Of a stretch of 64,000 bases of DNA, positions 3,579 through 61,009 are shown piece by piece. Both the position numbers and the translations under genes were made by a program. Under the pieces are notes generated by a model. That model was not told the DNA's origin, ran no database searches, and saw only the letters and a list, made by a program, of their open reading frames with translations. Source of the DNA: Siphonodentalium dalli (Eukaryota > Mollusca > Scaphopoda > Gadilida > Siphonodentaliidae); contig CP136067.1 in the NCBI GenBank assembly GCA_032622095.1, positions 95,284,707-95,348,706 on the forward strand. The letters run 5' to 3'. Position 1 is the stretch's first letter, and every line of letters starts with the position of its first letter.

Positions 3579-3727
3579 AATTGAGTTTTATCAGTGTAGG
3601 TAGATATATAACTGCACCGATCCCCACGACAGGGGGATAACTTATGAACATCAATTTTACCTCGTATCGCCTACAAATTGTTAATATGTACTACCAAAAG
3701 GTAATCAAGTTTATTACGAGATGATAT

Positions 3728-7082: not shown

Positions 7083-7102
7083 GTAAAATACCATATATAC
7101 AT

Positions 7103-30860: not shown

Positions 30861-30864
30861 GGTA

Positions 30865-31630
30865 GTAAAACATTTGCAGGAAGGTATGTCGTGTTTTTGA
30901 ATCTGGCATTTTCGGTGACCCACCACCCCGAAACCTGCAAAAAAACTTATTTTTTACTCACAATGTTGTGACACCCACCCCCCTAATGTCACTAAATTTG
31001 GTCTAAAAATCATAAAACACTACTGATATCACCCATATGACTGGGAAATTATCTCATTTAGTTCAAACAGTTTAGCATGTTGCAGAAGCTGTTTTAATTG
31101 AAAAACAGTGTGATAAATTGCTGATCATCAGTAAACCTAGGTCATTGTGCAGTATACACACGATTCCATAATTGCAAACTATTTCCTGATTAGTCTGTCA
31201 ACCAGCCCATACTGTAACATATTCCATACCACTTTTGTTTGTCTATTGGGGCAACTCCTATTATACTAACTAGTTGAAACAGGCTCCCTTCGGGCGCCTA
31301 TATTCAGCGACGGAGAGACCCTTTGTGGGACTTCGCACACATTTTGATCTTAGACAGAGTCTTTATTCAGCGGCGGCTGTTTTGTGCGCTTCAAGCAAAT
31401 TTCGATTATTGAAACATTTGGATTTATATCTATTGTTTAAAAAAATTTGTTTAGATTGAACTCTTTGCTCAATTTAGCAAAACCAATTTTTTTTTTAATT
31501 CAAAAATTTGTAAAACTGACACCGTTGTAACATCTGCAAGGGTACCCCGAGTCACTACACCAAATTTGGTTGAACTCGGTCTAGGGGTCTGAGAGAAAAA
31601 TCCGGACAGATCCTACTCATTTAAATATAT
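30865..31630. repeat. Dispersed repeat R2, copy 1
   Basis: It contains TTTGCAGGAAGGTATG, GACCCACCACCCCG, CACTAAATTTGGTCTAAAA, TTCAGCGACGGAGAGACCCT and, at its far end, TCTGAGAGAAAAATCCGGACAGATCCTACTC. The same blocks occur in reverse order and orientation at 60145-60905. The AGAAAAATCCGGACAGATCC plus TATATAGAT end resembles termini of non-autonomous Helitron-like repeats of invertebrates, but that label is inference. Open frames here are part of the repeat. Confidence 0.75.
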
Positions 31631-31837
31631 AGATTAGAAGCAGTCACAGCACCATACCAGACTTGAATACTTGAGGTCTTGTGAGATCATCTGAGTTGAT
31701 AAACATGCAAATAATTCACTGATTGGCTTGATGCACTGATGACAGTTATTTCCTTGCCATCGGTAGTCACATTACTGTTTGAGACAGTTGCACACTCTTT
31801 TTCCACGAACACAATGCTCTAGGATTTAGTTACAACT

Positions 31838-33987: not shown

Positions 33988-35438
33988 ATTCCATGCAAAG
34001 GTTGCGTTATGTCTATTGGTGTGACATAATCAACCAGTTTGACCTACATGTGTTCACCTTCTTAGACGGTCTAGAACTCCACAAACTTAACGCGATTCTT
34101 CTCGGCAACATTGGCACGTGTCTTCCTTTCGACAATGACACATGGGCACAGCTAATTATATTATCTTCCACGTTTTTGAACTATGGCTCACAACTCATAC
34201 GTATGCGCAAATGACTGGTCATGGACAAACACACTCGCTACTCGACGGAGCATGCAGCTGAACGTAAAAATGTGCACCTTACTCAGAACATATTTTAGAA
34301 CGCTGACTTGGCACTAATGTTGCCCATCGCATGGTGAAATGCGTGTATAGTGTACAATTTCTTCTCATTTTTTCAGCTTCTTTGTAAATACTAAAATATA
34401 GAAATACTATGTCCTGACAATATTGTCGACAGGGCATATTACTTTTGTAAGCTCTTCTGTAAAGGAGGTCAATAAATAAATAAGATACCCACCCACCCAA
34501 CCCTATGGATATAATTTTGCCAGTATCCGCAGTGGCAGTCTACTTCAATGTTGAAAATTCCAAGCTAGTTATACCGTTTCTCGTTTGGCATGAGAGTATA
34601 TGTGTGTATTGAATACGTGGTGCCTTGTGTGGATGGACCGGAGCCAAAGTTATGTTGCTTTGAATTATTATGATGATAAGTAAGAGAGTGTGAGTTGTGT
34701 TCTTCACTAGAAAACAGCCATGTGTGAGAATATGTAAGATGTACATGTATGAATTCGCAAGCGTATCTTGTGCTGTGCCATTGACTAGAAAACAGTTGTG
34801 TATTTGAGTTATGTAATATGTATGAATTTACACGTGTGTCATATACTGTGCCTTAATAAATTATGTACTAATAACATTTCTTAGTTAATTTACATGTCCT
34901 CAGCATGGGAGGCCTCGCATTCCCACCTATCAGCTAATTGGATATCTATGTCTAGCTTTCTCCATTGTTTAGTCTAGCTTTGATTTTGAATATATCATAT
35001 CTGGGAGTAAGGGGAGTAATTTGCAGATAATTATTGTACTAACACTATTTATTAATACTGGTATATTACTAGAACAATTTGTTTCCTTTTTCTTTGAGTC
35101 AATATTATGTTTTTCATATAGCATGGATAACCGTTTAGGCATTCAATAGGCTTATGTTCGGCTCGTGGTGATGTGGTTGGTAGTTGGTAGCTAATATTAA
35201 TCTAGAATAAATTTCGCAACCAACGCGGTTTTGTCAATTCTGGTGTGTTAGCTCCCCATCCGCAACATCACCCATGGCCGGGAACTTACATGTACGGCAT
35301 GGATGTAGATTACACGAAATGGCAGCAATATATCTCACATGGAAGTCACTATACTCGCCAGTTAGTTCACATATATAATGACTGAACCATAAAAGATAGG
35401 ATATTAGATATGCATCAGTTTTTTCTAGCTCACTGTGA
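33988..35438. other. Non-coding stretch
   Basis: A possible direct duplication near 34740-34860 (ACTAGAAAACAG...TGTGTATTTGAGTTATGTAATATGTATGAATT) is visible. No gene, RNA or transposon boundary can be supported. Confidence 0.5.
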
Positions 35439-35846
35439 TGGTACGTTCATACACTGGCAAGTTTGCACGGTATGGTTTGCAGGCATTGTGTCGTAGAAAA
35501 CAATATGGTGCCAGTATATGAACGGCAACAAACATATAAGATGCATCTATACCACAGCTAATTGCGTGCGAAATAAAATCTATGTAGTTCCACCTAGCGA
35601 TGTTACCGGAATTTGCCTTTAAATAGCATGCAATTATCTCGCAAGAATAAATCATACAGGTATTTGAATGCAAATTACAGTAGCACCGTTACATATGGAA
35701 CTACATAAGTTTTACTTCTCATGTCGTTAGCTTTGGTAAAGATGCATGTTATGTTTCCGTTCATATTCTGGCACCATGCGGTTTTCTATGACGAAATGCC
35801 TGCAAAACATACCGTGCAAACTTGCCAGCGTATGAACGTACCATGA
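35439..35846. mobile_element. MITE with about 55-bp terminal inverted repeats
   Basis: ATGGTACGTTCATACACTGGCAAGTTTGCACGGTATGGTT at the left is mirrored by ACATACCGTGCAAACTTGCCAGCGTATGAACGTACCAT at the right. The interior is itself weakly palindromic. Total length is about 408 bases with no coding capacity. A distant relative of the right half lies at about 14400-14580 (AGTAGCACC..GGTAAAG..TGCG...TGCCTGCAAAAT). Confidence 0.8.
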
Positions 35847-37159: not shown

Positions 37160-37500
37160 AATACTGGAGCGCCATTTAAGAAATTGAAGTTAATTTGCTT
37201 GCGTTCCATAGAGTATTGATGCAAGTTGGTCTGACATTTGTGTCAGACCAACTTGCATCCATACTCTATGGAACGCAACAAAATCAACATCCATTACTTA
37301 TATTTACACTCCATCGAGTCCACTGGCAGATTAGAAGAGCATTAGGCGCCCATTTCCAACGTTGTTCTCGTGTCATGATGCAAGTTGCATCTAAACAAAA
37401 ATGGATGCAAGTTGGGGCCAGCACGCGACGTCATGTGACGTAATATCGACCAACCAACGTCCTGCATTCATGTTCCACAGTACGAATGCATGTGTGAGTG
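37160..37500 (+). repeat. Dispersed repeat R4, copy 1, with a perfect-type hairpin
   Basis: At 37201-37276 GCGTTCCATAGAGTATTGAT...GGTCTGACA is followed after 4 bases by its reverse complement (36-base arms, one mismatch). Beyond the hairpin the block ATCAACATCCATTACTTATATTTACACT..TCGAGTC..CTGGCAGATT to GAATGCATGTGTGAGTGTAAATATA matches 40228-40625. The frame at 37195-37443 is part of the repeat. Confidence 0.8.
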
Positions 37501-37588: not shown

Positions 37589-38055
37589 AGGCCCACTTAA
37601 TTTTCGAGTCACCGATTATTTGTTTTTATAGAGCCTTTATGTACGGTTTTAATAACAATTTATGCCATAACATATGAATAAAATACTATAATTCATCACC
37701 ATTTGAAACGTCTGTGTCTCAGAAGATGTCCATAGAGAAATTTAAAACAGCTGAAATCATAAGAAGATTCCCCGTTATGGCTCCCAGAATGCAACATAAT
37801 TCAAACAAAAATGTATTTCAATGGAAGAGGAATAACTTTATCTTTAAAATATAGTGTTATTCCCCATCCATTGAAAATAATACACTTTGTGCAACAAAAC
37901 AAGATGAAACTTAAGCACTAAAACACGTCGGTAACTCACAGTTTATTACACCGGTTAAGTTGACAATACAATGTTAGAGAACTTCCTATTTCAAATGGTA
38001 TATAATATGGCATATATTTTATATGTGATCTGGGGGTTCGCAAATTAAGTGGGCC
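37589..38055. mobile_element. MITE with TTAA flanks and AGGCCCACTTAATTT terminal repeats
   Basis: TTAA at 37585-37588 and 38056-38059 flank matching ends: AGGCCCACTTAATTTTCG on the left, and on the right CAAATTAAGTGGGCC. The interior (467 bases) has no gene. TTAA duplications occur in piggyBac and a few other superfamilies. The termini differ from the CCCTTT MITEs elsewhere in the window, so this is a separate family. Confidence 0.7.
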
Positions 38056-38760
38056 TTAATTTAATGTTGATGTTTCTTTCAAATAAAGATTGCCAGTTCG
38101 GACAGACTGTATCTCTTACATGTAGGTTATTTTAGTCATGCAGTCATCGTGTTTCATCTTTCCATAATAAACGATAAACTGATACTATATTCTTGCTATT
38201 AATAACCGACATCTGGGACAATTTGGGAATTATAATTGGGTGTATAAATGTACTACATGTATATATAGAGGATCTCACATGAGTTTCTATTTTATACGGA
38301 ATTTATCAATTCGATTTGAGACGAGGTTTACCGAGAATCAAATATAATTAAGTGGACGATGTTGATAAATTAGGAAAAATAGAACGAGTTTGAGATACCG
38401 TTTATCACATGATCAAATAAACGCGAAGTATTCATCGAAAACAACAATGAAACTTCAGCAATCGCAAGTCATTTAAATAATGGCGTGACGTCATCGCACG
38501 CGCTAATATTACACTAATTTATGGTCGATTTGAGAAACAATTAGAGTAGATTGGAGAGATCGCTCGGTTTCCGGGCTTTAGTTAATTGTGTGCATGGGTG
38601 AACGAGATCAGCAAGTCAATCAGTTTTCTCGTTAATGACATTTTCTAAGGGCAGCCATCGCTTTTGACTCTTGAGATCGCATGTTGCATCTTAGTAGATA
38701 CATAATTCCAAGACACACAATCGACGCAACAGATTACAGAATTACATAACTTGATACAAT
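38056..38760. other. Non-coding, with a small inverted repeat
   Basis: At 38271-38400 ATCTCACATGAGTTTCTATTTTA...ATTTATCAATTC is mirrored by GTTGATAAATTAGGAAAAATAGAACGAGTTTGAGAT. It is probably a small MITE. No coding evidence. Confidence 0.45.
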
Positions 38761-38763
38761 AAT

Positions 38764-38952
38764 TCACATATATACATTCCATGCAACGTTGAATATCGGG
38801 GCAAGATATGTCCACGCTACCATGCAGTCATTACAAGGCCCTGTCGACGTTATACAATTTTCTTGCATATTCTCATAGCAACCGTAAGCTCCGCCCAATA
38901 GTGAACATCTGTGGAAAGCTCCATTGATCGTGACCGCTTGATATCTGCTCAT
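38764..38952 (-). CDS. Unrecognised small Cys-containing frame, possible exon
   Basis: On the minus strand ATG at 38950-38952 opens a 62-codon frame whose product has five cysteines in INGAFHRCSLLGGAYGCYEN, NCITSTGPCNDCM and an aromatic tail. No signal peptide or known domain is recognised. About 105-155 bases upstream on the same strand lie a TATATATA box (39057-39064) and a palindromic CRE (TGACGTCA, 39104-39111), the same two motifs seen before the lectin gene. This could be a small gene or a single exon, or chance. I make no functional claim. Confidence 0.2.
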   Translation of the reverse strand: MSRYQAVTINGAFHRCSLLGGAYGCYENMQENCITSTGPCNDCMVAWTYLAPIFNVAWNVYM

Positions 38953-39056
38953 AATCGTTGAAACGTCGTTGCCAACGACGAATGGATGATTCCAATATTT
39001 ACGTTGACGTTATTCATGTGCATTGACATATTATTTATAGTCGAATGTGTGAACAG

Positions 39057-39111
39057 TATATATATCGCCTGGCTGTTGCTGTTGTTCCCTTCGCTTGACA
39101 GATTGACGTCA
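39057..39111 (-). promoter_or_regulatory. Candidate minus-strand promoter motifs (CRE, TATA)
   Basis: Reading the minus strand, TGACGTCA (39111-39104) is followed 39 bases later by TATATATA (39064-39057). The spacing is reasonable for a core promoter, but both motifs are short and AT-rich sequence makes TATA runs common. Confidence 0.25.
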
Positions 39112-40227
39112 TACGCTGGTGTTGCCTGCATAAGCACACGTACATGTCGTAGTAATTGGCGACTTGAATTGCAGCAAAACGATGAAATACGTCACGAGTG
39201 CTCCAAATATCTACAGGAAACAACCAGTAAAGATATAAGTTATAACAAACATAATATTTATAATCTACAATCGACTGTTCGTCACATATTATATTCATCA
39301 ATATAAATAATAAGAAATAATTTGATGATAATCCAACTAACGAAAACATGAATGGTGAATAAGACAACAACACTGCAAATAAACGCGCCCAATCAAAATC
39401 AAAAAAACATATTTGTATTCAACTATGTATTTGCTATCTACCGATTATTTTATTCACTGGACCTGTACAAGCTATTAAAAGCCTAAGAATCGCCACCACG
39501 CGTGTATATGTACATCTCTCACATGAATATATTAACTCACTACAGCAACGTTTCAAAAGAATCGCACATAACGTAGTACAAGTCTTACCTACACCCTTTA
39601 GTACAACTATCTTGCAAATAAAAACTGTAATTTTACCCACATGTGGGATGCTCATCATATATACAACAGAGGGCTATCCAGAATAAAACATAACACGGAG
39701 AAAACTACAGGCTCAGTTAAAGATCTGATTTGACACCATCAAACTAATATTGTTACGTGTTAACGAGAAATATGGACAAGATTGAATGAGATTTACACTT
39801 TAAAATTGACCTAGCTTATCGCAAACCAAAAAATAACATATTTTTGATATTTATTGACGACGATAGAAGCCCAAAATACAAAACTCCCCCCCCCCCCCTG
39901 ACTCGGAGTCAGATCGGCCTCGGACTAAAACTTTTAGTGTGTCCCTTCTTTATTTAGAATCAACGAAGTTGTCCATCTCGAATGTTCTGTGTCGTTTTCT
40001 TCGTCTATTCATGGAAGTTTGGGAATAACAGTGTTGGAATAATGTTAAGACTGCCTGATATCGGTTTGTATGTGAATCGGAAATGGCCATCAAGGAAACC
40101 CGAAAGACGGCCACAACAATTGACATTTCAATCGGAAACATGACTACAGTGTTTAAAAATACGTATCACAGTTACTGGAAATAAAGTCCCAAAATGACGT
40201 TTTAATCGAATTTGTAATTTACTCAGA
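39112..40227. other. Non-coding stretch
   Basis: Overlapping frames of 60-110 codons on both strands lack signatures. A C homopolymer (about 14) lies at 39884-39898. GATTTGACACCATC at 39727-39740 recurs at 40230-40243, at the edge of repeat R4. Confidence 0.5.
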
Positions 40228-40625
40228 CCTGATTTGACACCATCTATTAAGAAATTAATGTTGATTTGGATGCAAGTTGGTCTGACATTTTGTGTTGAAC
40301 GCAACAAAATCAACATCCATTACTTATATTTACACTCAACCGAGTCAACTGGCAGATTCAAAGAGTTTAAGCGTCCATTTCCAACATTATTATTATTGTG
40401 GCTCGGTGCAAGTTGCGTCCACATAAACATAAACTGGCAGATTAAACGAGTTTTAAGTGCCCATTTCCAACGTTATTATCGTGGCTCGGTGCAAGTTGCA
40501 TCTAAACAAAAATGGATGCAAGTTTGGGTCATCAGCGCGCGACGTCATATGACGTAATTTCGACCAACCAACGTACTGCATTCATGTTCCACAATGCGAA
40601 TGCATGTGTGAGTGTAAATATACTA
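40228..40625 (+). repeat. Dispersed repeat R4, copy 2
   Basis: A direct-orientation copy of 37160-37500. The hairpin's mirror half is lost (only GATGCAAGTTGGTCTGACATTT remains). An internal segment, CTGGCAGATTAAA..GAGTTTTAAGTGCCCATTTCCAACGTTATTAT..TGGCTCGGTGCAAGTTGC, is duplicated (about 40349-40425 and 40434-40500). Confidence 0.8.
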
Positions 40626-41985
40626 CTAATGTGTTACGTGTTCTATACCGATGAGCCCGTTACATGCTGGACAAGGTGGACCATGATTGCCCTGATGGTT
40701 AGATAATGACTTTCTAAAGATGACAGTTTAACACGTTTTGTAATGATACAGGGGTCCAATGATCGCCATGACATCAATCGTCCATTATTTCGTGTCTCAA
40801 ATATGTAGATAATAAAGGTTATTCTTACACTATAGTTTTCAAAGCAAAACTGATGTATGTTTTGTGGATTTAGCGAAGCATGCGCCATGAAAGTGATGAT
40901 TATTGCAAGGTAATGTTCTCTTGCCCCAGGTAGGAAAATTAAATAAAGTAGTTTCAAATCGGACTGTTAATGGGTCTTCAAATTAATGGCGGATTCAAGC
41001 TAGCAATGCGATTTTGTCAGCTGAAGAAATCAGCAAACTGCTCGAACGATGTTTGCATGTGATTTTCTCATACATGTAAGATGAACACGCCGAATCCGGT
41101 GTATTTAACTAACATTTACATATATAGATAAATTACATCCACATGTGTTTTTTTCATAATACATCATTATTGTTTTTTTCTCCGACGATATCCACATCAT
41201 GTCATATCTCAATTTAGCGATACGTAATATAATGTAGATACGATATAATTCCCACGCGAAGTGCGATATACTATTTTATACATTTTGGACTTGATTGTAA
41301 TAATTATGACGGTCATGTTTCCACGCGCGAATTAGTCAAAATACAAATAGTTCATGTGATCATCAGAACTAGAACATCAGAAAAGCTAGATATGAACCGG
41401 TTTAATAATTTAACTTAAGGTATGAAGAGTCTATGTTGCTTCTAATCACGTGGTGTTATTGTCGATAGCCGTACGTAAATATGAGCATGGGGTTCTTTCA
41501 ACATTGGTTAATGTCAAACCATTGGCTGTATTTATTTATTCTACTTTGAGTTCTGAGTACGTTTCCTTTACAACATAATTTTGCCACACAAACCTCATCA
41601 ATAATTCGGCAGGATCCAAACACGGCATAGCACATTAGCTGGACCACTTAAAATAGGTGTGCTATACCTACCGTACGAGGAGCTGGTATTCGTATAAGTA
41701 TTGCGTACACTATAGACGACCTACTTCGAACAAAAGCGATTCAAGATAAGGGTGGTCTTCGCGTCGCGATGGGTATTGCTGTTAAAATAGTGACATCTGT
41801 TAAAGCCGCTATAAACAGTAAGAATATTAAAAAATAATCACATTGTGTTCTTATAATATGTGTCGCATAAATAGTATATATCTTTATTTCCTCCATCTAG
41901 GTGAGTATGGTTTACAAAATTATAACATAATAATATAGAAAGGAAAATAGATAATAATTCCCGCCATCATGAATCATAAACACTC
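40626..41985. other. Non-coding stretch
   Basis: No gene-like frame or repeat boundary that I can support. The sequence is AT-rich with scattered short poly-T. Confidence 0.5.
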
Positions 41986-41994
41986 ATCCAAACA

Positions 41995-42140
41995 ATCTCG
42001 CACAGGCACACAATCTCATCAGCTTGCATCCGAATCCATATATACACATAGACATACACAAGTTTATACATACATGCACACGCACACACACTCGCACATA
42101 AACACCATTACATACACGCACGTATACATACGCCCGTACA
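41995..42140 (+). repeat. CA-rich simple sequence
   Basis: Degenerate CA/TACA repeats directly precede the left arm of foldback element B. A similar CA-rich run on the same strand (47445-47500) follows the right arm, so the CA runs are in direct and not inverted orientation. Confidence 0.8.
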
Positions 42141-43614
42141 ACATAATATAAACCATATTTACACACCCTATGGACCCCCCAGGACTCTTCCGGACCGATT
42201 TTTTCATGTACCTGGACTCCTCTAGAGTAGAAATCCGGATGTTAACAAGAAAACAACATGGCCGCATGTGACGTAATCCAAGATGGCGCCCATGAGGGTA
42301 GAAAAATTTCGCGATTTTACCATATGTCTATTTATATGACGATTGTGGAAAAACTAATTCAGATATGACATTGCAATGAATTGCATTTTGTTCCTTATAT
42401 ATTTCTACGTCAACTGATATTAAATTTGAAAATCAAAATCCAAGATGGCCGCCAGAATATGCCACAGAATTTGAAAAATTCGATTATTTTTCACAACTTT
42501 TTTCAGAATAAACACAAAACTAATCATAATATGTCACAAATATTTGAATATTATGACGTTTATATGACGGCATGTAATCCCTCAATATCATCTGACAAAA
42601 ACATCGGTAATTGACAACTTAGGGACAACAGTCGGTACATTTCGCGATATTACCCTATGTCAATGTATATGACGATTGTGGAAAAAACAATTGAGTTATG
42701 ACATTGCAATGAATTGCATTTGGTTTCTTGTATATTTCTACGTTAACTGATGTTATATTTGTAAATCAGCATCCAAGATAGCCGCCATAATATGGCTCAG
42801 AATTTGAGAAATTCGATTTGTTTTCAACAATTTTTTCAGAAAGAAAAACAAAACCAATCATAATATGTCACAAATATTTGAACATTATGACGTTTATAAG
42901 ACTGCAACTAATCCTTCAATATCATCTGACAAAACAATCTACAATCGACAACTTAGGGAGAAAACAAAATGGCCGCCATTGTGATCACCCGCAACAGTCG
43001 GTAAATTTCGCGATATTACCCTATGTCCAGTTATATGAGGATTGTGGGTAAGCCATTCGCTGTATTACATGTGGTGTATTCCTCGTAAAGACCCAAAATT
43101 GCCGCTATGGTATGCCTTAATTTAGAGATCATGTCTGTTTTTAACGTATTTTTGTTTATAATTATATAGCCTGGTAGCGTGGTTTACCTGGTATGGAACC
43201 CGAGAGTTCTCGTGACTTATTTGTGTATGTACCTGGACACAACTAAAGTAGAACTTTGAATGATAACAAGAATCGTCTTAGACGCACATGACTTAACCCA
43301 AAATGGCCACAGGAGGGTGAACAATTTTCGCAAATTACCCCTAAGTTTATAGTTACATGATTGGGAAAAAACTATATGAGATATTAAATTGAGGTAAATT
43401 GCGTTTTGTTCCTTATACCATTCCACGTATTGTGCTATGTATTCTGTTCAGAGAGTATAAACCCTCCTATCTACCCACACCAACGAGAAGGAATCAGGCA
43501 CCAGGGCCATTGAAAATAAATCATGTCACGAATGTGTGACAATTTGTATGTACACGTTACAAAAAGTAGCTCCAACATCAACATTATTCATCATGAACAG
43601 ACTCCATGAGTAGC

Positions 43615-43947
43615 CTATGGTAAACAAGACAGGCAAAACACGTATTTATTAATCCTGATATCATCAGATTCAACATCTGCATCGCCAGAGCTTTCAATGT
43701 TTCCTTCGACAAGCAAATATTGGAGTGTTGATGGAAGAATGCCACATTCGGACCACAGTGTCTCTAAAATCCCTTCATCATCGGTCCGTCAATTTTCTAA
43801 TGGTGACAGAATAGTGTACTTATTCAGATGACCAACACGGGAGTTCATCCGTTTTATGTGAGGCGTCAGCGACATCTTACGTTGTGGCATTTTGGATAAG
43901 TCAAATTTTGATGACTCGGTGCCAATTAGTTCACCTTTACCATCCAT
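43615..43947 (-). pseudogene. Unidentified coding remnant inside element B
   Basis: On the minus strand, ATG at 43947 opens 110 codons that stay in one frame with a single TGA (codon 53) before TAG at 43615-43617. The product begins MDGKGELIGTESSKFDLSKM, has a basic middle (PQRKMSLTPHIKRMNS), then after the stop GILETLWSECGILPSTLQYL, an acidic stretch (ESSGDADVESDD) and CLSCLP at the end. Upstream in the same frame, after another stop, LWTWISYRAKNVDTVRSMM reads on, so the original gene was probably longer. The family is not recognised. It lies opposite in direction to the gypsy pol remnant and may be a separate passenger. Confidence 0.45.
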
Positions 43948-44040
43948 CTATATTAGCATCATAGATCTCACTGTGTCAACGTTCTTCGCTCTATAGGAAA
44001 TCCAGGTCCATAAGGCGTCTTATTACCATGCCCGGTATAT

Positions 44041-46220
44041 GCCTACCATCAAGTCTTGGTCAAAGATGAGGACTGCTGAAAGACGGCATTCAGTACAAAA
44101 CACGGAAGCTGGGAATTTGTCAAAATGGCCTTTGGGCTATCGGGAAGCCCTTATACCTGGTCGATGGTAATAAACCTGGTTTTCCAAGGCCTGAACTGGT
44201 CAATAGCATTGTGCTATCTCGACAACGTAGTTATTGGAGGTTTTTCAGTATCTAATCACCTCCAGAATATCCAGGCAATACTACAGAGATTCCGTAAATA
44301 TAACCTGAAATTAAAACCCCAACCTCTTCCAGCACAAAATCGAGTTTTCTAGAAAGAATAGTCAGTCAGGATGGGGTTAAAACTGAATGACGAGTCCCTG
44401 GAAACAGTTAAAAACTGGCTAAGCCCATCAAGTACCAAGAAAGTAGAAAGCTTTTGTGGCCTGGTGATCTACCATCGGGCTTTTGTCAAAAGTTATGTCG
44501 TGCTGCCTAGACCATTATAAGCACTCACGGGAAAACAGCCATTCATAGGGGAAGAACAACAGGAGGCCTTTGATACACTCAATGCATATCTGGTGTCTCC
44601 TCCAGTCTTGGCACTACCCAATAGTGAAGACTCATTTGTCCTGGATTGCGATGGTAGTGGGTGGGCCGTCGATGTGGAGCTCTTGCAGATCATAGGGGAT
44701 GAAGGACGAGTGATTGCCCATGGTAGCTTTATCTTTACCCCCGAGCAAAGCCAGTATTGTACAACACGGAAAGAACTCCTGGCTGTCATAAGTTTTAACC
44801 GGCAATTCCGTCACTACATTTTGGGCAAGCCCTTCCTTTTAAGGCGGATCATAGCAGCCTCAAATGGTTGATGGGTGACGCCCTCTCCAGAATACAAATT
44901 TAGGTAACTTGCCAGCAGTATATCGCGGGCTGTGACCTTGACAAGTTGCCATGCAAGGGCTCCAAATACTGTCAGCGTCTCCATCGAAACTGGGCTAGAT
45001 TTGAAGAGGAAGTTGATAACATTGTGGCTTTAGCCCAGGGTTTATGGGAGTTTGTAACTTAGAATGGCCAAGAGACTCCAGCTGTCTCAATGGTAACCTC
45101 CGCTAATTACTCAGGTGAGGAATGCTGGCAAGATGGATTCCAAGGGCTGCCTTGGGACCCAGGAGGCTACTGGTCGGATTGCGTGCCATGTGTTGTCTGT
45201 GTCTGCCCAGGCACTGGAGATGGATGCACTCAAAATTGGACAAAGATTAATATGAGACAAGTTGCAAGCTCAGATCCATCCCGACCTAACCTTGGCGGGT
45301 ATATATGCACCCTAGTTGAACTTGAGAAACAACGTAAGGAACCGGATCTATCCCCAGTCATTGCGTGGATTGAATCCGATCAAGAACCAACATAGGGTGA
45401 AATATTCATCTCCATTAAGGCCACTAAATATATCTGGATTAATCGTCAGATATTTGTGATAGTAAATGGATTACTGTATAAGATAAAATAGAAATTGGGA
45501 GCAGGTTATATTCATTCCCAGCCAATTTGCGGCTGAAATCTTGGCTATTGCTCATGATATACCCGCGTCTGGTCACCAGGGAGTGGTGCGGACCAAGGCT
45601 AGGGCCAAAAAGTACTTCTATGCATGGAATTACTCAAGACATTGAATCATTCATAGGGGTCTGCCCCCCAATGCAATCAAAGGAAGAAACCATCGAGGCA
45701 TGCCAAATGGGAAATGCAAACTATCCATGTGGGTAATCCAACGGAAAGAGTGTACCTGGATTTCCTGGGACCATTACCATTTAGTGAACAGGATGACAAA
45801 TACATTCTGGTGATCACGGATCAGTTTACTAAGTGGGTGGATTGTATTCCCCTTCCTGATCAGACCACAGAAACGATGGCATGTGCGGCGGTAAATTAAT
45901 TCTTTGCACACTTCGGATGCCGGCCTTGCAAATGTTGACGGGCCAGGGCCCATGTTTTGAAAGTAAACTGTTATGTGCGATCTGCGAGTTACTCCAGATA
46001 CATAAAACCCGAACGCTCCCTTATCAACCTTCGGCAAATGGCCAGGTGGAACGTCAAAACCGGACCCTGATGAATGCTGTCCGATGATTCGCTAACAAAA
46101 ACCAACGAAGCTGTGACAAATTCCTTCCCCAAATAGCGGGCACGCTAAGATCATCAGTGCACATAATTACTGACCAAACCCCAAATAAACTTATGTTGAG
46201 ACGTGAAGTTAATCACCTAG
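44041..46220 (+). pseudogene. Degenerate Ty3/gypsy retrotransposon pol (RT, RNase H, integrase)
   Basis: The order is that of gypsy pol. Reverse transcriptase (44041-44370) starts AYHQVLVKDEDC, hits TGA at 44077, then reads KTAFSTKHGSWEFVKMAFGL and CYLDNVVIGG; the catalytic YLDD is YLDN. RNase H (44521-44850) has FVLDCDGSG and CTTRKELLAVISF..FRHYI. A linker with CKGSKYCQRLHRNW follows at about 44950. The integrase zinc-binding region (45530-45640) reads IAHDIPASGHQGVVRTKARAKKY. The integrase core has YLDFLGPLP and VITDQFTKW (45745-45840). After a frameshift it has LTGQGPCFES, where the second catalytic Asp is Gly, and NGQVERQNRTL, then RSSVH and TPNKLML (to about 46220). There are many stops and frameshifts and no gag, protease or LTRs. 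It is inactive. Confidence 0.9.
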
Positions 46221-47420
46221 TAGATTAGTGTTTAATTTTATGGAAAAAAAACTGATACTGGTCAATACCTGAAAGACCTTGAACAAGAAATGAAGCGGGC
46301 CCACGAAATTGCCCGGAAACATTTAAAAACTACTTGAAAACAATACTTAAATATTATTTATAATAGGATATATGGAAATAAAACAGGCATGTTATCTAAA
46401 TTAAGGCATATCATAGCAGTCAGTTTGGGTCTTTACTGGCATCATTGACACTAGAAAAGTACAAGGAATACACCACATGTGATACAGCGAATGGCTTACC
46501 CACAATCTTCATATAACTGGACATAGGGTAATATCGCGAAATGTACCGACTGTCGCGGGTGATCGCAATGGTGGCCATTTTGTTTTCTCCCTAAGTTATC
46601 GATTGCAGATTGTTTTGTCAGATGATATTGAAGGATTAGTTGCAGTCATATAGATGTCATATGTTCAAATATTTGTGACATATTATGATTGGTTTTGTGT
46701 TTTTTTCTGAAAAAATTATTGAAAAAAAAATCTAATTTCTCAAATTATGAGCCATATTCTGGTGGCCATCTTGGATTTTGATTTACAAATTTGACATCCG
46801 TTAACGTAGAAATATATAAGGAACCGAATGCAATTCATTGCAATGTCATAACTCAATTGGTTTTTCCACAATTGTCATATAAATAGTCATATGGTAATAT
46901 CGCGAAATGTACCGACTGTTGCGGATGATCGCACTGGCGGCCATTTTGCTTTCTCCCTGAGTTGTCGATTACAGATTTTATGTCAGATGATAATGAAGGA
47001 TTACTTGCCGTCATATAAACGTCATAATGTTCAAATATTTGTGACATATTAAGATTGGTTTTGTGTTTTTTCTGAAAAAAGTTGTGAAAAAGAATCGAAT
47101 TTATCAAATTCTGTGCCATATTCTGGCGGCCATCTTGGATTTTGATTTTCAAATTTAATATCAGTTGACGTAGAAATATATAAGGAACAAAATGCAATTC
47201 ATTACAATGTCATATCTCAATTAGTTTTTTTCACAATCGTCATATAAATAGACATAGGGTAAAATCGCGAAATTGTCCGACCCTCATGGGCGCCATCTTG
47301 GATTACGTCATATGCGGCCAGGTTGTTTTCTTGTTAACATACGGAATTCTACTCTGGAGGTGTCCAGGTACATGACAAAATCGATCCGGAAGAGTCCTGG
47401 GGGGGACCATAGGGGGTGTA

Positions 47421-48428
47421 CCTAGCTGCCCGACTAATACTTATGCACACACAAGCGCGCACACAAGCGTTCACATACACGCGCATACATATATATATAC
47501 TCAACTGTAAAAACAACGAACAACATATAGCCCAGTATTTTTGTACAATAGAATGCCCATAAGGTTACCGACCCGTAGTTGATAACTACCAAACATTCAC
47601 AAGTGATACCAGGACATGCCGGGACACGGAATTCACGGGTAACTGAAGATAATCGACTTGAGTTAAATACTCAACACCGGGAACAGCTCACTAAAGGAAC
47701 CTTGGTTAAATGGTCATCATATTATTTACACAAACGGCGCTCTCTAATCCTCACCACACACAATTTCGGTGTTGAATTGGTCACGGTGGATCACTCTTTC
47801 AAAATAATGCCACGGTTTGGAGTGTTTTGCTTGCCGCACAACTTTACGTGTAGTATATAAACATCTGCTTCACTCACACAGCTTTTTTGAATAGTATCGC
47901 GTCCATACTATCAGTGTACTATTTTATTACTGTATTATTAAGGAAATTCATAATTTGGTAACTGTTATCTCTAAATTATAACCTACAACCAAGGCATTTG
48001 TGTGCCGTTAAATATCTAGATTTAACTTGATGGCTGACTATTGGATCGCAATATACTGTATATTGTACATTTGTTAAAACACCAGTATGCATTACGGATA
48101 ACACACTCAACGATCAATTATAAAATTCAACGCGTGTGATCCTTTGGGAAAACTAATAATTGATAATCTGGCGACTCAGCATTGTCACTATTAACGACCC
48201 ACCAGCCGGTTTGTTTTAAAGATAACCCTTATAGGCAAGCGGGTGTCTGGCCACGTGACACATATGGCAGGGTCGCGAACACCAGCCCTAGCCCTCCGGA
48301 ATTAATGTAACAAGTCAGAATAACATTGCGGGTGGACTATAGCGCCTTTCCGCCTGTAAACTTAGATATAGTGAAAGACATATTGCATGCTTTAAAACAA
48401 ATCCGTCCATGGAGGGGGGGGGGGGGGG
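47421..48428. other. Non-coding flank with one unexplained frame
   Basis: CA-rich simple sequence runs at 47445-47500. A 93-codon plus frame at 47579-47860 contains QHREQLTKGTLVKWSSYYLH and a basic run, but no domain is recognised and no splice or promoter context supports it. A G homopolymer of about 16 lies at 48413-48429. Confidence 0.4.
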
Positions 48429-48429
48429 G

Positions 48430-48745
48430 CGGGTAGTACAAAATTTGCAGGAAGGTATGCCGGAGTGGGTGGATGGCCCGAGGGGCAAAAAACACGTTTT
48501 TTACAACCTCATGCATTTTTTTAACTAAAGACCTTCGTGCCCTTATTTAACATTTGTAACAGTTTAAAACCTTTTATAACATCAAAAACACCATATTTAT
48601 GTTACTGGGACCTCATATGGGCATTAGTGGAGATGACATTATGCTATGGCATGTTGCATATTGGACGGTGGGGTGAAAATATTCCTTCCCGACACCCTTA
48701 GGAAAGAAGCTTCGAGAAATGTAAAACTGAAATAAATAAACTTGT
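48430..48745 (+). repeat. Dispersed repeat R3, copy 2
   Basis: GCAGGAAGGTATGCCGGAGTGGGTGGATGGCCCGAGG at the left, GGGCATTAGTGGAGATGACATTATGCTATGGCAT in the middle and CCTTAGGAAAGAAGCTTCGAGAAATGTAAAACTGAAATAAAT at the right match the reverse complement of 31838-32140. Confidence 0.75.
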
Positions 48746-48779
48746 CTTTAACTAATACGGCAGCTCCGTGTCAAAACAG

Positions 48780-49180
48780 GGGTGAATCGTGCATTTTATG
48801 GTAAAAGCAACAAACTTTGTATACAACATCCGGAGGGGATATCTTGTGGATATAGATATCATGCCAAGCTAGGGAGAGCACATGGTTGCCATGGTAACCA
48901 CCGAAAATCATGGCCGCCAAAAATGCCAAATTGGCTTTTTGTGGAAGTGCGATTTTGGTGCCCCTCTCCCTTCACTGCACCCCTTACTCAAATAGCGCCA
49001 CTTTTGCCATCTTGAAATCACATGATTAGTTTCCTCGTTTCATGGAGAAGAATGTGTATCAACTTTGTGGAAATCGGCGCTGAACAGGTTTATAAATTAT
49101 TGTGTCCCTCTCCCCTTCCGTGCACCCCTGACTCAAATGGCGCCACTATTGACATGGTGTCACTTTAGAAAATTCTAACC
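48780..49180 (-). repeat. Dispersed repeat R5, copy 1, carrying an X-box
   Basis: Its reverse complement matches 59200-59330 and, more weakly, 57139-57260: X-box, then CTTGGCATGATATC, then TGCTTTTACCATAAAATGCACGA. Next to it, CCTTACTCAAATAGCGCCACTTTTGCCATCTTGAAATCAC is duplicated at 49126-49165 as CCTGACTCAAATGGCGCCACTATTGACATGGTGTCAC. No gene. Confidence 0.7.
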
Positions 49181-49299
49181 CGCACAATTATCTTTCTTAT
49201 AAAGAAAGTACCAAAAATAGACCCCTCTGTTGTTATCTAGATGGTCCCTGTGAATTTCAATATAACACAGACATACATTGGCAAATATCTACCATATAT

Positions 49300-50076
49300 T
49301 TTTCAGATTTCGTATATATATGTGCACGCTATAGACTCGAAAACGGCTCGACCGATTGAGCCCAAACTTGCTATCTAAGGGTAAAAATAAGCGAGAAGTG
49401 TCATCGGACCATTCGCGAGCCTGTGCGACCACTCCTTCACATTCAATTTCCACCACAATGGGGATTGATGGGTTAATCGCGTGATAGTTAAAGAGCGTTC
49501 GTATCTGCGGCGTTGTTAATAAAGAGCGTTTATATACACGACGAATATAAATACCGACCGTATCGGAAACTGGGGATTTCGAGACGAATTTTCGTACTTA
49601 GTGGTTCCAAGGAACGGGGGAGATTTTCATCGGGTCATTTTGTCCGCCCGATGTGACCTTGACCTTGAAACGGGTATCCACAAATGATATATATGTGTGT
49701 GTCCTTTATAGACTCGAAAACGGCTCGACCGATTGAGCCCAAACTTGCTACCTAGGGCTACCTTTGTCCGGAAAGTGTCATGCACGGGTCAAATCGTGAC
49801 CCCGACCTGACATTGACCTTCAAAATGATCAAGTCAATGTCAAATCAGGTAAAACTGGCGGATTTCGACGAAATTTGATACCTATGTGAACTTTTGTCCG
49901 GGGAGTGTATTGGACGGGTCATATCGTGACCAGGACCTGACCTTGACCTTCAAATCGGGAAAAACTGGCGGATTTCGACAAAATTTGGTGCAATTGCAGC
50001 ACACGTGTCTCGGAAGCTGTAGCAATTGCAACAAACCCATGGGACGAATGTCGCCAGAGTCGGGCTAATCTGCTAG
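49300..50076 (+). mobile_element. Helitron-like non-autonomous element with internal repeats
   Basis: The block CTCGAAAACGGCTCGACCGATTGAGCCCAAACTTGCTA occurs twice (49336 and 49716), each after a TATATATGTG head. GACCTTGACCTTCAAA words recur. The 3' end reads GAGTCGGGCTAATCTG and then CTAG|T at 50073-50077, like the ends at 36456 and 60112. Several units appear stacked in tandem. No Rep/helicase frame is seen. Confidence 0.6.
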
Positions 50077-50085
50077 TATATATAT

Positions 50086-50480
50086 TATCCATAACGGACA
50101 GCCAGCACTGATCTCAAGGGTCACGATCACTGTGAAAGGTCAAGGTTATTGTCAAACGATGCTGTTTTTAATACTTTACGTCATATTATTAGTCTTTATG
50201 TTGACACATTAACAACACATCATTATAAGTCATTTTGGATATGATCCGAAGCTTGAAACCTATGGCAGCCAATTTGGTAAAAACACATGAGTTTTGCCAA
50301 AAATAAACTAGCCATTATGGATTGCTAATGCCTAGTAACACCATAGGAAACTGTTGGCTATGCGTCTATTTGGATTGGATATGCGTCAGACCATATATTT
50401 GTTAGAACATATACCTTTTGTATATGGATAGATTCAAAATGGCCGCCATTTGAGCAAAAAAAAAACCTTTTATGTAAAGT
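50086..50480 (-). repeat. Dispersed repeat R6, copy 1
   Basis: Its reverse complement matches 56960-57545: GATTCAAAATGG against the CATTTTGAATC end, TGTTAGAACATATAC against TATATGTTCTAACA, CATTTTGGATATGATCCGAAG against CTTCGGATCATATCCAAAATG, and CTGATCTCAAGGGTCA against TGACTCTTGAGATCAG. The two copies flank about 6.5 kb that includes foldback element C. Confidence 0.7.
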
Positions 50481-51465
50481 GTGTAACGCCATTTGTGGTG
50501 AAATTTGTGTAAAAATCATTATTTAAAAAATAAAATTGGGCTAGACAAAACAATATTCGGTGATTCTGATTTATTTATTTTAAAAATGCTTCAATTTATA
50601 ACTACATCAAAAACATCATTTACCCCAGATTTCTTCAGAATGTTTTCCCAATTTGCACATATTCATTAGGTTAATTTTAACATAAGTCAAGTCTTTTGTA
50701 TATTATGACCTTTTATTTTAATCTTCGTTGACTGTAAATTGTTCCTCCACCGTGACTAATAAAAAAACTGCTAATTAGGTTAAGAAAACACTAATTTACT
50801 ACATTTGGTCAAAATTGTGGACTGAAATGGTCATCAGTTGGAGAATTTTCTAACCTAAGGGTAAGTATGAGGTTTGAAATTTTGAGACAGTACAGAAATC
50901 AATTACATTATTGCTGTACTGTGAAGATGTAGTTCTAATATTTCGACTGTCCTGATGAAGGTCCAGCTCGGGCCGAAAGCTTGATATTAAAGAGTTATTA
51001 TGCTACAGTTTATTATCATAAATTCCCTGATCTGGAGGACAATGTCAGCTACGAAATATTTAAAACAAATGATTTCGCCATCAATAGTCATTGCGTTTAT
51101 ATATAATATATAATATAATACATTAACAATATAACAAGGATGGTGTGTATCGTCAATTTTGATTAATATTCGTAAAAACATAACATGATAATAATACTTT
51201 GGGCACGATTATTCCTAATTTATATTTGATAACCCTACCGGAGTGCTTCTCATCACTTTAAATACAAAATGTAAGAAAGATCAAAATGTGCAAAAATTCG
51301 AGTACATGTAGTTAGCTAGTTGCGCATCATGTGGACAAACATTCGACTAACCTAAGTTAGCCTTATTGACACTTTATTTGTTTCCAGTGCAGCTGTTTTG
51401 GTGCATCGATTGATGTGATTATAATACAAAACTTACATATATTATCAATATATCTTCGTACAAAT
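50481..51465. other. Non-coding; possible Penelope-type terminus with hammerhead-like core
   Basis: Most of this stretch is featureless AT-rich sequence. At 50888-50926 an 8-base stem (CAGTACAG...CTGTACTG) is followed at 50952-50978 by a hammerhead-like core (see the separate entry). Nothing else can be supported. Confidence 0.4.
50945..50990 (+). ncRNA. Hammerhead-ribozyme-like core (candidate)
   Basis: CTGATGA (50952-50958), a 5-bp stem II GGTCC/GGGCC with one G-U pair around loop AGCTC (50960-50974) and GAAA (50975-50978) match the order of the hammerhead catalytic core. Stems I and III are not convincing: only ACTG/CAGT and TAATAT/ATATTA can be paired and they are displaced. Penelope-like retroelements are known to carry hammerheads in their terminal repeats, so this may be a decayed copy. 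Activity is unlikely as it stands. Confidence 0.3.
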
Positions 51466-51469
51466 AGTT

Positions 51470-51790
51470 CATATTGGACTTAAATATGCACATAAATGTA
51501 CATTGGCCTTATTCGATTCTCAAATAATCCTATGGTGAGCTTATAGACTTTATTCCGTTGAATGGCGCGGGCCGCAGTGACGACACATTGTAAAGAGTGT
51601 GAATCTGGTAAGTCATGCCGACGAAAAAAGTAGATGAAACAATTCACAATATTGCCAATATTGGCTTATTTCGTATGGAACTAGTCCCATATTGGACTGT
51701 TTTAAAAACCTCATTGTACGCCCATATAGAGTGTATATTGAGGTCAAATAATGCATATATGAGATTATTTGACTCATTAAAATAAGATCG
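51470..51790. mobile_element. MITE with GC-rich core, second copy
   Basis: A reverse-orientation relative of 19290-19640. It keeps GAATGGCGCGGGCCGCAGTG, then ACACATTGTAAAGAGTGTGAATCTGGTAAGTC and GACGAAAAAAGTAGAT. The flanks are more diverged (about 75 percent alike by eye). Confidence 0.65.
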
Positions 51791-51925
51791 CTATGTGCTC
51801 AAATATGTATAATCAGACTAAGCGCCCCTCGATTAATCGATTCTGATAAGTGAAGCTATTCTGATAAGTGAAGTGCATAATCCGATTGATCGCCCCTTAA
51901 TTACTATTTATTTGGATTCGGGGGT

Positions 51926-52315
51926 ACGAACAAATATTTGATTCGAGTCGAGGAACCCACATATCAAAGCTCAGAGTTATTAGAACTCGATTTTTGAAAT
52001 CTATTTATTTTCACCGTTCGATACTTATTAGTGCGCTAGTAAAAAGTCGACGAGCCGACGGTCTCAGACCAAATTGCGGGTGAAGATGGATAACTCTAAA
52101 ATCAAGAGGCTTTTTGCTGATAATAGGGCCAAATTTCGTCGAACAACATGTTGATAAATAACACGTTTCGGGCAATTGTATACTATATTTGACAGTGGTT
52201 GGCATTATTTTTGGGTAATTAATCGATTCTGATAGCTGAAGCGGCATCTCTAATAACGTTGCTATTGGAATCTGATTATATGGGGACCATCGAATCGGAT
52301 TGAGTACCTTTAATT
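51926..52315 (+). repeat. Dispersed repeat R1, copy 2
   Basis: Same blocks and order as 28543-28915 (ACAAATATTTGATTCGAGTCGAGGAACCCAC to GGATTGAGTACCTTTAA). The 156-codon minus-strand frame at 52011-52481 overlaps this repeat and is not accepted as a gene. Confidence 0.75.
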
Positions 52316-53616
52316 TAACGAGAACAGACTGGTATAGTTGTAAGTGTTGAATTTCTTTGGAATGCCTATAATACAAAAATAGTGTTTTGAGTGGAAATAA
52401 ATATCTCATTCGTAACTGAGACAGATGCTTATTTCGGCTCATGGCAACCCATTCGCGAAAGTAAACACTTGTCTGGGTCACTCATTGGATAATTTTGGTA
52501 CATGCACCCACTCATAAATACTATATACTGTTATCATCCTCTGTGTACTCTTATATCAGAACAATTGGTTTAAAACGTAGCCGGTGTTGAACTTGAGGCG
52601 TATACTTTATAAAGCAAAATGATCTCGTACGAGAATATCAGTAATAGACCGTTTTCACAATCGATCACGAATTATCTCCCCATTGTGTGACCGGATGAAG
52701 GTCAGAGCGAGAGCGAAGCGAATTGTGTCATCATTATTTCGTTTTTGTTTATTCTGAACTCAGCTCTGAACTGAGTAATTTGCGTTGTGACTTGGTTCAT
52801 ATAAAATAAAGCTCCCATCAGCTTATGTCTATATTATTATGTATATGTAATTCATAATCCAAATAAAATTATTTTAATGATATTTGATGGACGAAAATCT
52901 AATTAAATCGCATAGAACACAGCGCGACGGACACCAAGTTTGGACATTTTGCGTTGTGGTTTGGTTCATATACAATAAAGCTCCCATCAGCTTATATCTA
53001 TATTATTATGTATATGTAATGTTTATATGACCAAATAAAACTATTTAAATGATATTTGATGGACGAAAGTCTAATTAACCGCCTAGAACACAGCGCGACG
53101 GACACCAAGCTGCGGCTTGGTGTTTGGACATTTTGCGTTGTGGCTTGGTTCATATAAAATAAAACTCCCGTCAGTTTTATCTATATTATGATGTATATGA
53201 TTTTTTTATTTTTGAATTTGAATTTGTTTATTAGCATTATATTTAGCTATATATAGTTGATTAGATGAGAATGGGAAACAAACACAAGTGACGGTGAAGA
53301 ATGAGTGTATATATAGATGGGTGAAAGATTTTTTTTATAAAAGGTTACAAAGGATAAGTATTAGTAACCTACTAATAGAGTATTGTGTGTACCAATAATT
53401 ATTATTATGTGACTTATATAAGGTATGGTCAGAAGAAGATATCAAATATTTGTCACATATGAAGTATGAAGTACATGGCTAAATCAACTTAAATAATTAA
53501 ATAGCAAAAAGCAGGTGCACACAAATGTATTAATGATTGAATATTTTTGCACTGGATTTCAGTTAAATAGTTATTGAAAGGAAATGGCTAAATTAAATTC
53601 AATAATGAATATATAG

Positions 53617-53774
53617 AGGATATCCACACTTTTTCAGTGGATATGGGTTATATCTCATGAGTGAGGCCAAAACATTGAATTTCTACGAGTGGCTTTAGCC
53701 TCGAGTGAAAATTCAAATGTTTTGTCATCACGAATGAGATTTAACCCATATCCACTGAAAAAGTGTGGATATTC
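53617..53774. mobile_element. Nested palindromic MITE inside element C
   Basis: GGATATCCACACTTTTTCAGTGGATATGGGTTA is mirrored by TAACCCATATCCACTGAAAAAGTGTGGATATTC, and the interior continues the palindrome (AACATTGAATTTCTACGAG..TCGAGTGAAAATTCAAATGTT). A second, looser palindrome follows (53776-53935: TTATTATATACTT..ACTTGCC against GGGCAAGTATATAATAAAT) around a duplicated TGGGATATCA-TTATATCTCACT. Confidence 0.8.
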
Positions 53775-54110
53775 TGTTTATTATATACTTTAGTTACTTG
53801 CCTATGGCCCCAATGAATGTCAGTACATCAGAACTTTCACCAGTGGGATATCACTTATATCTCACTAGTGGGATATCATTTATATCTCACTGCTAAAACC
53901 TTATAATTCATGGGCAAGTATATAATAAATGTGTATATGTGCTGTTTATATCTCCGAATAATACTATTTTAATGATATTAAATATCATTAAAAATTTTAT
54001 GGACGAAAGTCTCATTAAACTGAAATCATCCATTCACAAGTCTTAATTAGTAAACGGTAAGCTGATTAGAGTTTTCACTCTAAAATCTTAATTTCTAAGC
54101 GGTAAGCTGA

Positions 54111-54302
54111 TTAGATGTTTCTTCTTACTGTTATTGCGGCAATTTTAAGTGTGAATTGTTGTTGATGGCTGTCACCTATTGTAGTTCAGTGTTTTGGCAG
54201 TTAGTTGTAATCAGACATTTTGGCACTGTATGGAAAGGTTGGTTATTTGACAAAGACTTTACTACAAAAACTCAAACTAAAGGTTTTCATAATGTAAAGA
54301 CA
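54111..54302 (+). CDS. Unrecognised Cys-bearing open frame in the core of element C
   Basis: This 64-codon open frame, between TGA at 54108 and TAA at 54303, reads LDVSSYCYCGNFKCELLL..., then FWQLVVIRHFGTVWKGWLFD. The start CYCG-N-F-K-C-E is loosely like the CxCGxC...C entry of P2X7-type cytoplasmic domains common in invertebrate transposon-associated proteins, but the match is too weak to name. The only in-frame ATG is internal (54165), so if real it is an exon or a fragment. Confidence 0.2.
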
Positions 54303-54340
54303 TAATACCACCACTTTGGACGAACAACAATTGCGAAAGT

Positions 54341-54655
54341 ATGAATAATGTAATCAAATTGGAGAATAACTGGAAAGTGTTAAAGTTGCCAGGTCTAACA
54401 GACAGACTGAATGACATAGCAAATGACCAAATGCAAGATGTAAGAAGTGCCCTATATGGCGCAGGTAACTACCGACTGACTGGCGACGCAAGAAAAGTAT
54501 TTGTAAAACACGGGACATGGATTAATTTGACATATGAACAACGCAGTAGACGATTGAGAGGACTTTTGACCTTCGTCGTTGACAAGATCGTTAGCCGATT
54601 GACAATCGCAAAAACTGCGGCCATAGCCAAGAAACCAGGTAAAATAAGAGGGTAA
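54341..54655 (+). CDS. Unrecognised 104-residue basic protein in the core of element C
   Basis: ATG at 54341 opens 104 codons ending in TAA at 54653. The N-terminal half reads NNVIKLENNWKVLKLPGLTD and DQMQDVRSALYGAGNYR. The C-terminal half is strongly basic and helix-like (YEQRSRRLRGLLTFVVDKIV, then KTAAIAKKPGKIRG). It is the most gene-like frame of the core: it is free of simple repeats, has mixed codon use and sits where a foldback element would carry cargo. No domain is recognised. It could be the C-terminal end of a transposon-encoded nucleic-acid-binding protein (inference). Confidence 0.35.
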   Translation: MNNVIKLENNWKVLKLPGLTDRLNDIANDQMQDVRSALYGAGNYRLTGDARKVFVKHGTWINLTYEQRSRRLRGLLTFVVDKIVSRLTIAKTAAIAKKPGKIRG

Positions 54656-60112: not shown

Positions 60113-60144
60113 TATATATATATATGTCAACTATATATATAAAC

Positions 60145-60905
60145 GAGTAGGATCTGTCCGGATTTTTCTCTCAGATCTCTGCACCGATTTCAACCAAATT
60201 TTGTGTGGTGAATTGGGATACTCTGGCAGATGTTATAATGGTGTTAGTTTTTCAATATTTGAATTAAAACAAATAAAATTAAATTGGTTTTGTTAAATTG
60301 ATCAAGGAAATCAATTAAAAAAAAAAATTAAAACAATATATATAAATCAAAATGTTTCAATGATCAAAATGTGATTGAAGCGCACAAAGGGGCGCCGCTA
60401 AATAAAGGCTCTGTCTAAGATCAAATTGTCCCACAAAGGAGGCCACATGCATCTCAGACGCTGAATATAGACTCCCGAAGTTAATAGAATAGAAGTAAGT
60501 TGCTCCATTACATTAACATAAGTGGTATGGAATATGCTAGATAATGAGCTGGTTGACAGACTAATCAGGAAATAGTTAGAAATTATGAAATTGTGTGTAT
60601 CCTGCACAATGACCTAGGCTTACAGATGATCAGCAATTTATAAACATTTTTGTTTCAATTAAAACAGCTTCTGAAACAGGTTAAACTGTTATTTGAACTA
60701 AATGAGATCATTCCCAGTTATATGAGTAATATCACTAGAGTGTATACGGTTTTAGACCAAATTTAGTGAAAATTGGGGGGGTGGGTGTCAAAACATTGGC
60801 AGTAAACAAATATTTGTTTAGCAGGTTTGGGGGTGGTGGGTCCCCGAAAATGCCAGATGCAAAAAAACGGCATACCTTCCTGCAAATTTGTTACTACCCA
60901 CCCCC
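60145..60905. repeat. Dispersed repeat R2, copy 2 (inverted relative to copy 1)
   Basis: GAGTAGGATCTGTCCGGATTTTTCTCTCAGA opens the copy and CGGCATACCTTCCTGCAAATTTG closes it. The interior matches 30865-31630 in reverse complement, including AGGCTCTGTCTAAGATCAAA and CTAAATTTGGTCTAAAACC. It abuts the CTAG end of the Helitron-like element after a short TA run. Confidence 0.75.
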
Positions 60906-61009
60906 GGCCCGTCCTATCATGTTCCCACACAATAAAAATGGTACATAAATTTATGGATGACATGGGAAAGGATATGATGTCTGATGTCTTCAGGATTTTT
61001 TGCGAAAAC

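Follow-up and report, generated by a model that had tools for sequence, protein, structure and literature searches.

A decayed long-armed element with a Ty3/gypsy pol fragment in its chimeric core in the scaphopod Siphonodentalium dalli

Results

We analysed a stretch of 64,000 nucleotides from the scaphopod mollusc Siphonodentalium dalli (assembly GCA_032622095.1, contig CP136067.1, positions 95,284,707 to 95,348,706 of the forward strand; hereafter the window, with positions counted from its first base) and found that one of its repeats, element B, is a long-armed element of a known kind, now decayed and chimeric. Two inverted arms made of tandem sub-repeats enclose a core of ~3.2 kb, and this core is a chimeric patchwork that holds, on the + strand, a Ty3/gypsy pol fragment that is cut inside coding sequence at both ends and lacks recognisable long terminal repeats (LTRs). 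Capture of the gypsy piece by B is plausible. The nearest kinds to B are Galileo/Tetris-type foldbacks and Pack-TIRs.

Inverted arms built of tandem sub-repeats

The inverted arms of B are real and lie far above chance. The left arm (982 bases) and the right arm (1041 bases) gave a local alignment with 907 identical columns out of 1043, which corresponds to 92.6% identity over ungapped columns, with 73 substitutions and 8 gap events. Under permissive scoring the left arm extends to ~43168 and the right arm to ~46350. Each arm has a terminal block of ~130 bases followed by direct sub-repeats, which are spaced 333 and 364-366 bases apart in both arms, and B thereby shows the structure that defines foldbacks, namely tandem repeats nested inside long terminal inverted repeats. 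Dispersal in many copies is a further trait of foldbacks; the window holds one copy of B. Corresponding units are more similar between arms (left versus right, 93.7% for R1 and 91.7% for R2) than neighbouring units are within one arm (87.8% over ungapped columns for R1 versus R2 on the left, 89.5% on the right), and the tandem duplication therefore seems to predate the last time that both arms were alike. An earlier note on this DNA had described inverted arms of ~1 kb made of tandem sub-repeats, with ends at 42161 and 47420; the alignment and the unit spacings bear out this architecture, and both ends were correct to within one base.

Searches for relatives of the arms gave nothing. Three B arm patterns returned 0, 0 and 9 stretches from viral contigs, with no relative; the 9 stretches, whose best matches to B were 21-64 columns long, were rejected as coincidence. 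One arm pattern had 0 matches in prokaryote genome contigs. A literature search, made by words and not by sequence, found no description of the B arms, and searches for RNA families (gathering threshold) and tRNAs (bacterial settings) found none in the window.

A broken Ty3/gypsy pol fragment in the core

Five of seven pol pieces matched Pfam families, in the order RVT_1, RT_RNaseH_2, Integrase_H2C2, rve and rve_3 (Table 1). This is the Ty3/gypsy order of reverse transcriptase (RT), RNase H, H2C2 and rve domains; the two rve matches fell under curated cut-offs and are supported by matches in the PDB, where the H2C2 piece found nothing convincing. The pol pieces at 44904-45059 and 45063-45392 had no match in Pfam. 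Pieces at 44014-44076, 44362-44517, 45396-45488, 46088-46225 and 46236-46334 had no Pfam match above the cut-off; these five, and likewise 44799-44900, we take to be pol from frame continuity and pol motifs. The longest pol frame, at 116 codons, was reached in 100 of 200 shuffles and is not remarkable alone, so the identification of pol rests on family matches and not on frame length.

Several features indicate a dead fragment. First, the pol path contains about 8 in-frame stops and about 7 frameshifts, as read from the frames, and the RT motif reads YLDN in B versus YLDD in Ty3. Second, pol was recognised from mid-RT to beyond the integrase core, and gag, protease and the first part of RT, which a Ty3/gypsy element would have, were not recognised in the core pieces scanned. 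Third, 38001-44013 and 46341-52000 have no direct repeat in common at E values up to 0.01. Without the LTRs that mark members of Ty3/gypsy, the sequence in the core of B counts as a piece of such an element and not as a whole one. Finally, the last pol-like frame ends at 46334, only 16-46 bases from the right arm, and the 3' end of pol, the LTR and any original core are therefore absent on that side. The dead Ty3/gypsy pol without LTRs that had been read between the arms is thus upheld, its RT, RNase H, H2C2 and rve pieces being in order and broken. Because no close gypsy relative was found to mark the ends of pol, these were set by Pfam, Ty3 coordinates and frame reading: the RNase H, integrase and RT pieces gave one locus among viral contigs, with a match of 13 residues only, and the RNase H piece had zero matches in genome contigs.

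Table 1. Features of element B and its flanks. Positions are those of the window; Ty3 residues refer to a Gag-Pol reference of 1547 residues.
Feature	Position	Strand	Evidence
Left flank, CA-rich, taken as host DNA	42030-42159	.	CA+AC 0.385 per base
Left arm of B	42160-43141	+	Starts TA then CACACCCTATGG; local alignment with right arm
Left sub-repeat R1	42293-42625	+	Direct repeat families D1, D3, D4
Left sub-repeat R2	42626-42991	+	Direct repeats; 87.8% to R1
Left partial sub-repeat R3 and inner arm end	42992-43141	+	Direct repeats; arm alignment
Degenerate second copy of B's left end, oriented as left arm	43192-43428	+	Matches 42169-42410, 70.5%, E 1e-31, permissive blastn
Core segment without assignment	43429-44013	.	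Frames not above chance
Gypsy RT, C-terminal part	44080-44349	+	RVT_1 5.5e-9, profile 111-187 of 205; Ty3 Gag-Pol residues 703-780, E 1.8e-6
Gypsy RNase H	44521-44868	+	RT_RNaseH_2 2.6e-22; Ty3 Gag-Pol residues 860-960, E 0.0076
Integrase zinc-binding domain	45487-45642	+	Integrase_H2C2 4.7e-7
Integrase core, first part	45657-45896	+	rve 2e-5, under curated cut-off; PFV integrase E 0.003
Integrase core, second part, shifted frame	45860-46084	+	rve_3 0.0026, under cut-off; PDB chain 3kkr_A, Integrase, E 7.2e-7
Probable later pol, two frames, last retrotransposon-like sequence	46088-46334	+	Frame continuity and pol motifs; no Pfam match above cut-off
Right arm of B	46380-47420	-	Local alignment; permissive reach ~46350
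Right flank, CA-rich, same strand as left flank, taken as host DNA	47421-47550	.	CA+AC 0.277 per base

The pol fragment looks about the same age as the arms, or somewhat older. For 724 codons in 11 segments (44014-44076 and 44870-44900 excluded) and a nonsense fraction of 0.0465, the per-arm distance of 0.039 predicts 4.0 stops, with a probability of 0.049 for 8 or more; doubling the distance to 0.078 raises the expectation to 7.9 and this probability to 0.54. Arms that were homogenised later would appear too young, and the stop load therefore does not separate capture from nested insertion.

The rest of the core

Just inside the left arm lies a degenerate second copy of the left end of B, which scored 211 in local alignment against a maximum of 96 in 100 shuffles; the same search for a second end copy on the inner right side was negative (score 39, shuffle maximum 75). 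Between this copy and pol, the segment at 43429-44013 has a longest stop-free run of 73 codons, reached by 259 of 500 dinucleotide shuffles, and a longest pair of runs across one stop of 109 codons, reached by 159 of 500. Four pieces of the segment had no Pfam match above the cut-off, and two of them were also negative in NCBIfam. Of the earlier proposal that a foldback encloses a gypsy pol and a second, unrelated coding remnant, the long-armed element with gypsy pol in its core therefore stands and the second cargo, with frame lengths within chance, is rejected. No part of the B core matched the rest of the window.

Ends and flanks

The aligned ends of B are TACACACCCTATGG and TACACCCCCTATGG, and TA, present at both ends, is the only target sequence shared at that boundary. 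No target duplication of 3-12 bases emerged from a scan of 19 offsets, in which matches of 6 bases or fewer had to be exact, one mismatch was tolerated at 7 bases or more and two at 9 or more, and the duplication sought at 42161 and 47420 thus comes down to TA.

Both flanks are rich in CA. When 5808 overlapping windows from the rest of this (+) strand were compared, 2 reached the CA+AC level of the left flank and 79 (1.4%) that of the right flank, in a test devised post hoc, after the flanks had been looked at. Because this richness is on the same strand on both sides, it is more simply explained by a single insertion that split one CA-rich tract; a CA tract derived from the arms would be mirrored. 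One direct repeat brackets B, a CA-rich stretch of 49 bases at 71% in the flanks.

How element B arose

With our confidence evenly balanced, we favour B as one inserted copy of a foldback-type non-autonomous DNA transposon with a repair-patched chimeric core. An element with long terminal inverted repeats of tandem 333-366-base units would have inserted beside TA in a CA-rich stretch, mobilised by a transposase supplied from elsewhere; no transposase of B's own was recognised in the core pieces scanned. The likeliest route to the present core is break repair within it, with template switching, by which stretches of other DNA would have been copied in; the same has been proposed for Pack-TIRs. 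We infer that B transposed, that it inserted only once and that repair supplied its core. The arms begin together at 42160/47420 and stop together at about 43141-43168/46380-46350. Break repair with template switching fits a pol piece whose coding sequence is truncated on either side, the lack of recognised LTRs, a junction close to the arm and the presence of the element's own rearranged end inside the core. Several observations weigh against this account. TA is a weak target signature, since end matches of 2 bases were also seen at three further offsets in the scan of 19; the window holds a single copy of the B arms and neither a second copy with different cargo nor a parental gypsy locus; the core piece at 43429-44013 could be traced to no source; and the junctions of B are too decayed for reading. 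The near-source bias of cargo described for animal Pack-TIRs (PMC8277862) is likewise not seen for B within 64 kb.

The main rival, which we consider somewhat less likely, is that a foldback was already in place when a complete gypsy element used its own integrase to enter the foldback's core, and that deletions then removed gag, the first part and the end of pol, and both LTRs. Nested insertion is common in repeat-rich DNA, and the stop load requires no gypsy much older than the arms, so that arrival of an intact element is possible. Comparison of the frames with the usual pol order suggests another internal deletion after RNase H, so deletions do happen here. However, separate deletions would be required at both ends, the right one reaching nearly to the arm edge, and no LTR-like direct repeat was found within about 6 kb on either side.

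It is unlikely that B is no single element but a pair of solo arms from a tandem-repeat element, each inserted on its own and facing opposite ways around an old gypsy fragment. Solo arms are known in Galileo, where they make up 64 of 170 copies in a table of PMC3573991, a third, truncated left end is present in the B core, and a shared target is backed by TA alone. Against independent insertion, the inner limit is identical in both arms and the outer flanks are both CA-rich on the same strand. That pol belongs to B, as a retroelement moving with long inverted arms, is very improbable: the stop load does give pol and arms a similar age, but the first part of RT is missing, the scanned pieces showed no recognisable gag or protease, the RT motif carries a mutation, and we know of no family of retroelements with long inverted arms.

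Comparison with known systems

Among foldbacks, Galileo of Drosophila mojavensis, a member of the P-element superfamily, is described as having long, internally repetitive inverted arms, and in one group these range from 892 bases without an internal repeat to 1264 bases with three copies of a ~210-base tandem repeat (PMC3573991). Galileo resembles B in its arms, and its described copies also include chimeras, core sequence recruited into arms, and solo arms. Compared by description only, it differs in the 7-base target duplications of most copies, which are those of the P superfamily and are absent from B, and in the (defective) transposase sequence of some copies (PMC3573991). Tetris, a foldback of Drosophila virilis, has arms of up to 1735 bases with a flanking domain and ~220-base tandem repeats, and a core described as variable in size and composition and as lacking coding capacity, to which the core of B can be likened (PMC4079207). 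Unlike B, Tetris has target duplications of 8-10 bases and is assigned to Mutator in that account (PMC4079207); no duplication of the length seen in Mutator-type foldbacks (FB4, Tetris) was found at the 19 end offsets of B. Sea urchin TU elements and Arabidopsis FARE elements are further candidates for comparison.

Animal Pack-TIRs share with B the presence of foreign sequence between both ends of one terminal inverted repeat element; gap filling and template switching are proposed for them, and the foldback FB4 is one carrier (PMC8277862). In that account Pack-TIR cargo has an identified parental copy, whereas the cargo of B is itself a transposon piece with no parent within the window. The TA at both ends of B recalls Tc1/mariner, and two bases are weak evidence of such kinship; the arms of B are far longer than usual for that group, whose arms are given as under 100 bases (PMC8277862). 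No Tc1/mariner DDE transposase was recognised in the core pieces scanned, and a non-autonomous copy would lack one anyway.

A motif common to the arms of elements A and B

A second long-armed element, A (19988-24095), has arms 93.8% alike over ungapped columns, outer ends TAGTCCGGGCGCCA and TAGTCCGGTCGCCA, TAC flanks on both sides and a core rich in CA/TG simple sequence. The motif CCAAGATGGCCGCC, counted with at most 2 mismatches, occurs at 14 sites in the window, versus 0.12 expected, and 13 of the 14 fall in the arms of A and B, which cover 5136 of the 64000 bases. These sites are not independent events: inverted arms and sub-repeats copy each other, so a binomial P overstates the enrichment. 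AARATGGC occurs 26 times in the window, versus 5.3 expected, with 4 copies in the left and 4 in the right arm of A and 3 in the left and 5 in the right arm of B, all pointing inward; shuffle means were 0.11-0.17 per arm, and the observed counts were reached in 0 of 300 shuffles for each arm. Outside these arms there are 2 copies in the B core, 0 in the arms of a third element, C, and 8 others. Sites of CCAAGATGGCCGCC or AARATGGC are concentrated at 20284-20662, 23084-23791, 42278-42977 and 46574-47301, and also occur at 50434.

CCAAGATGGCCGCC contains the core of a published YY1 site, GCCATCTTG, of which the window has 10 exact copies: the arms of B account for 5, those of A for 2, and 3 lie elsewhere. 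The same site is reported for ProtoRAG, a lancelet transposon that carries it in its inverted repeats (PMC7481187), a likeness shared by A and B. B differs from ProtoRAG in having no 5-base target duplication, and the scan of its core pieces recognised no RAG-like gene. A and B align over 84 columns at 73.8% around CCAAGATGGCCGCC, and their termini differ. The shared motif may stem from a common ancestor, or A and B may depend on one host factor or one transposase. RAG/Transib elements leave a 5-base target duplication, and kinship of B with them, which the YY1 site had suggested, was rejected, as none of the 19 offsets gave an exact 5-base duplication.

A broader idea, which we regard as unlikely, is that of a foldback family that replaces its core by capturing other transposons while keeping its arms as arrays of a host YY1-like binding site. 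On this view, given the different termini of A and B and their common inward CCAAGATGGCCGCC, long-armed elements that are unrelated might be acted on by a host factor, as ProtoRAG is by YY1, and this factor might favour longer arms.

Other repeats in the window

The longest frame in the core of element C, at 54293-54652 (120 codons), had nothing convincing in Pfam, NCBIfam, the PDB or viral contigs; it seems to resemble the C-terminal part of Mutator-like transposases, and C may hold a remnant of its own transposase rather than cargo. The earlier note's remark that C also carries foreign frames in its core finds neither backing nor contradiction here, and the general capture that it suggested is unsupported. 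Palindromes of 126-407 bases, 78-96% self-complementary, lie at 3727-3943, 7095-7274, 27856-27981, 35438-35844, 37174-37303, 53611-53781 and 61004-61189 and are possibly miniature hairpin elements. A dispersed inverted repeat of ~800 bases, 80.6% identical, joins 30861-31632 and 60131-60898, and an array of short repeats around ACCCAGGTGTACC occupies 1134-1769 on both strands.

Implications

If its core was captured, B would be a DNA transposon bearing a piece of a retrotransposon, adding to the picture drawn from Pack-TIRs. The YY1-type motif shared by A and B would offer a testable reason why otherwise different long-armed elements keep and multiply the repeats in their arms.

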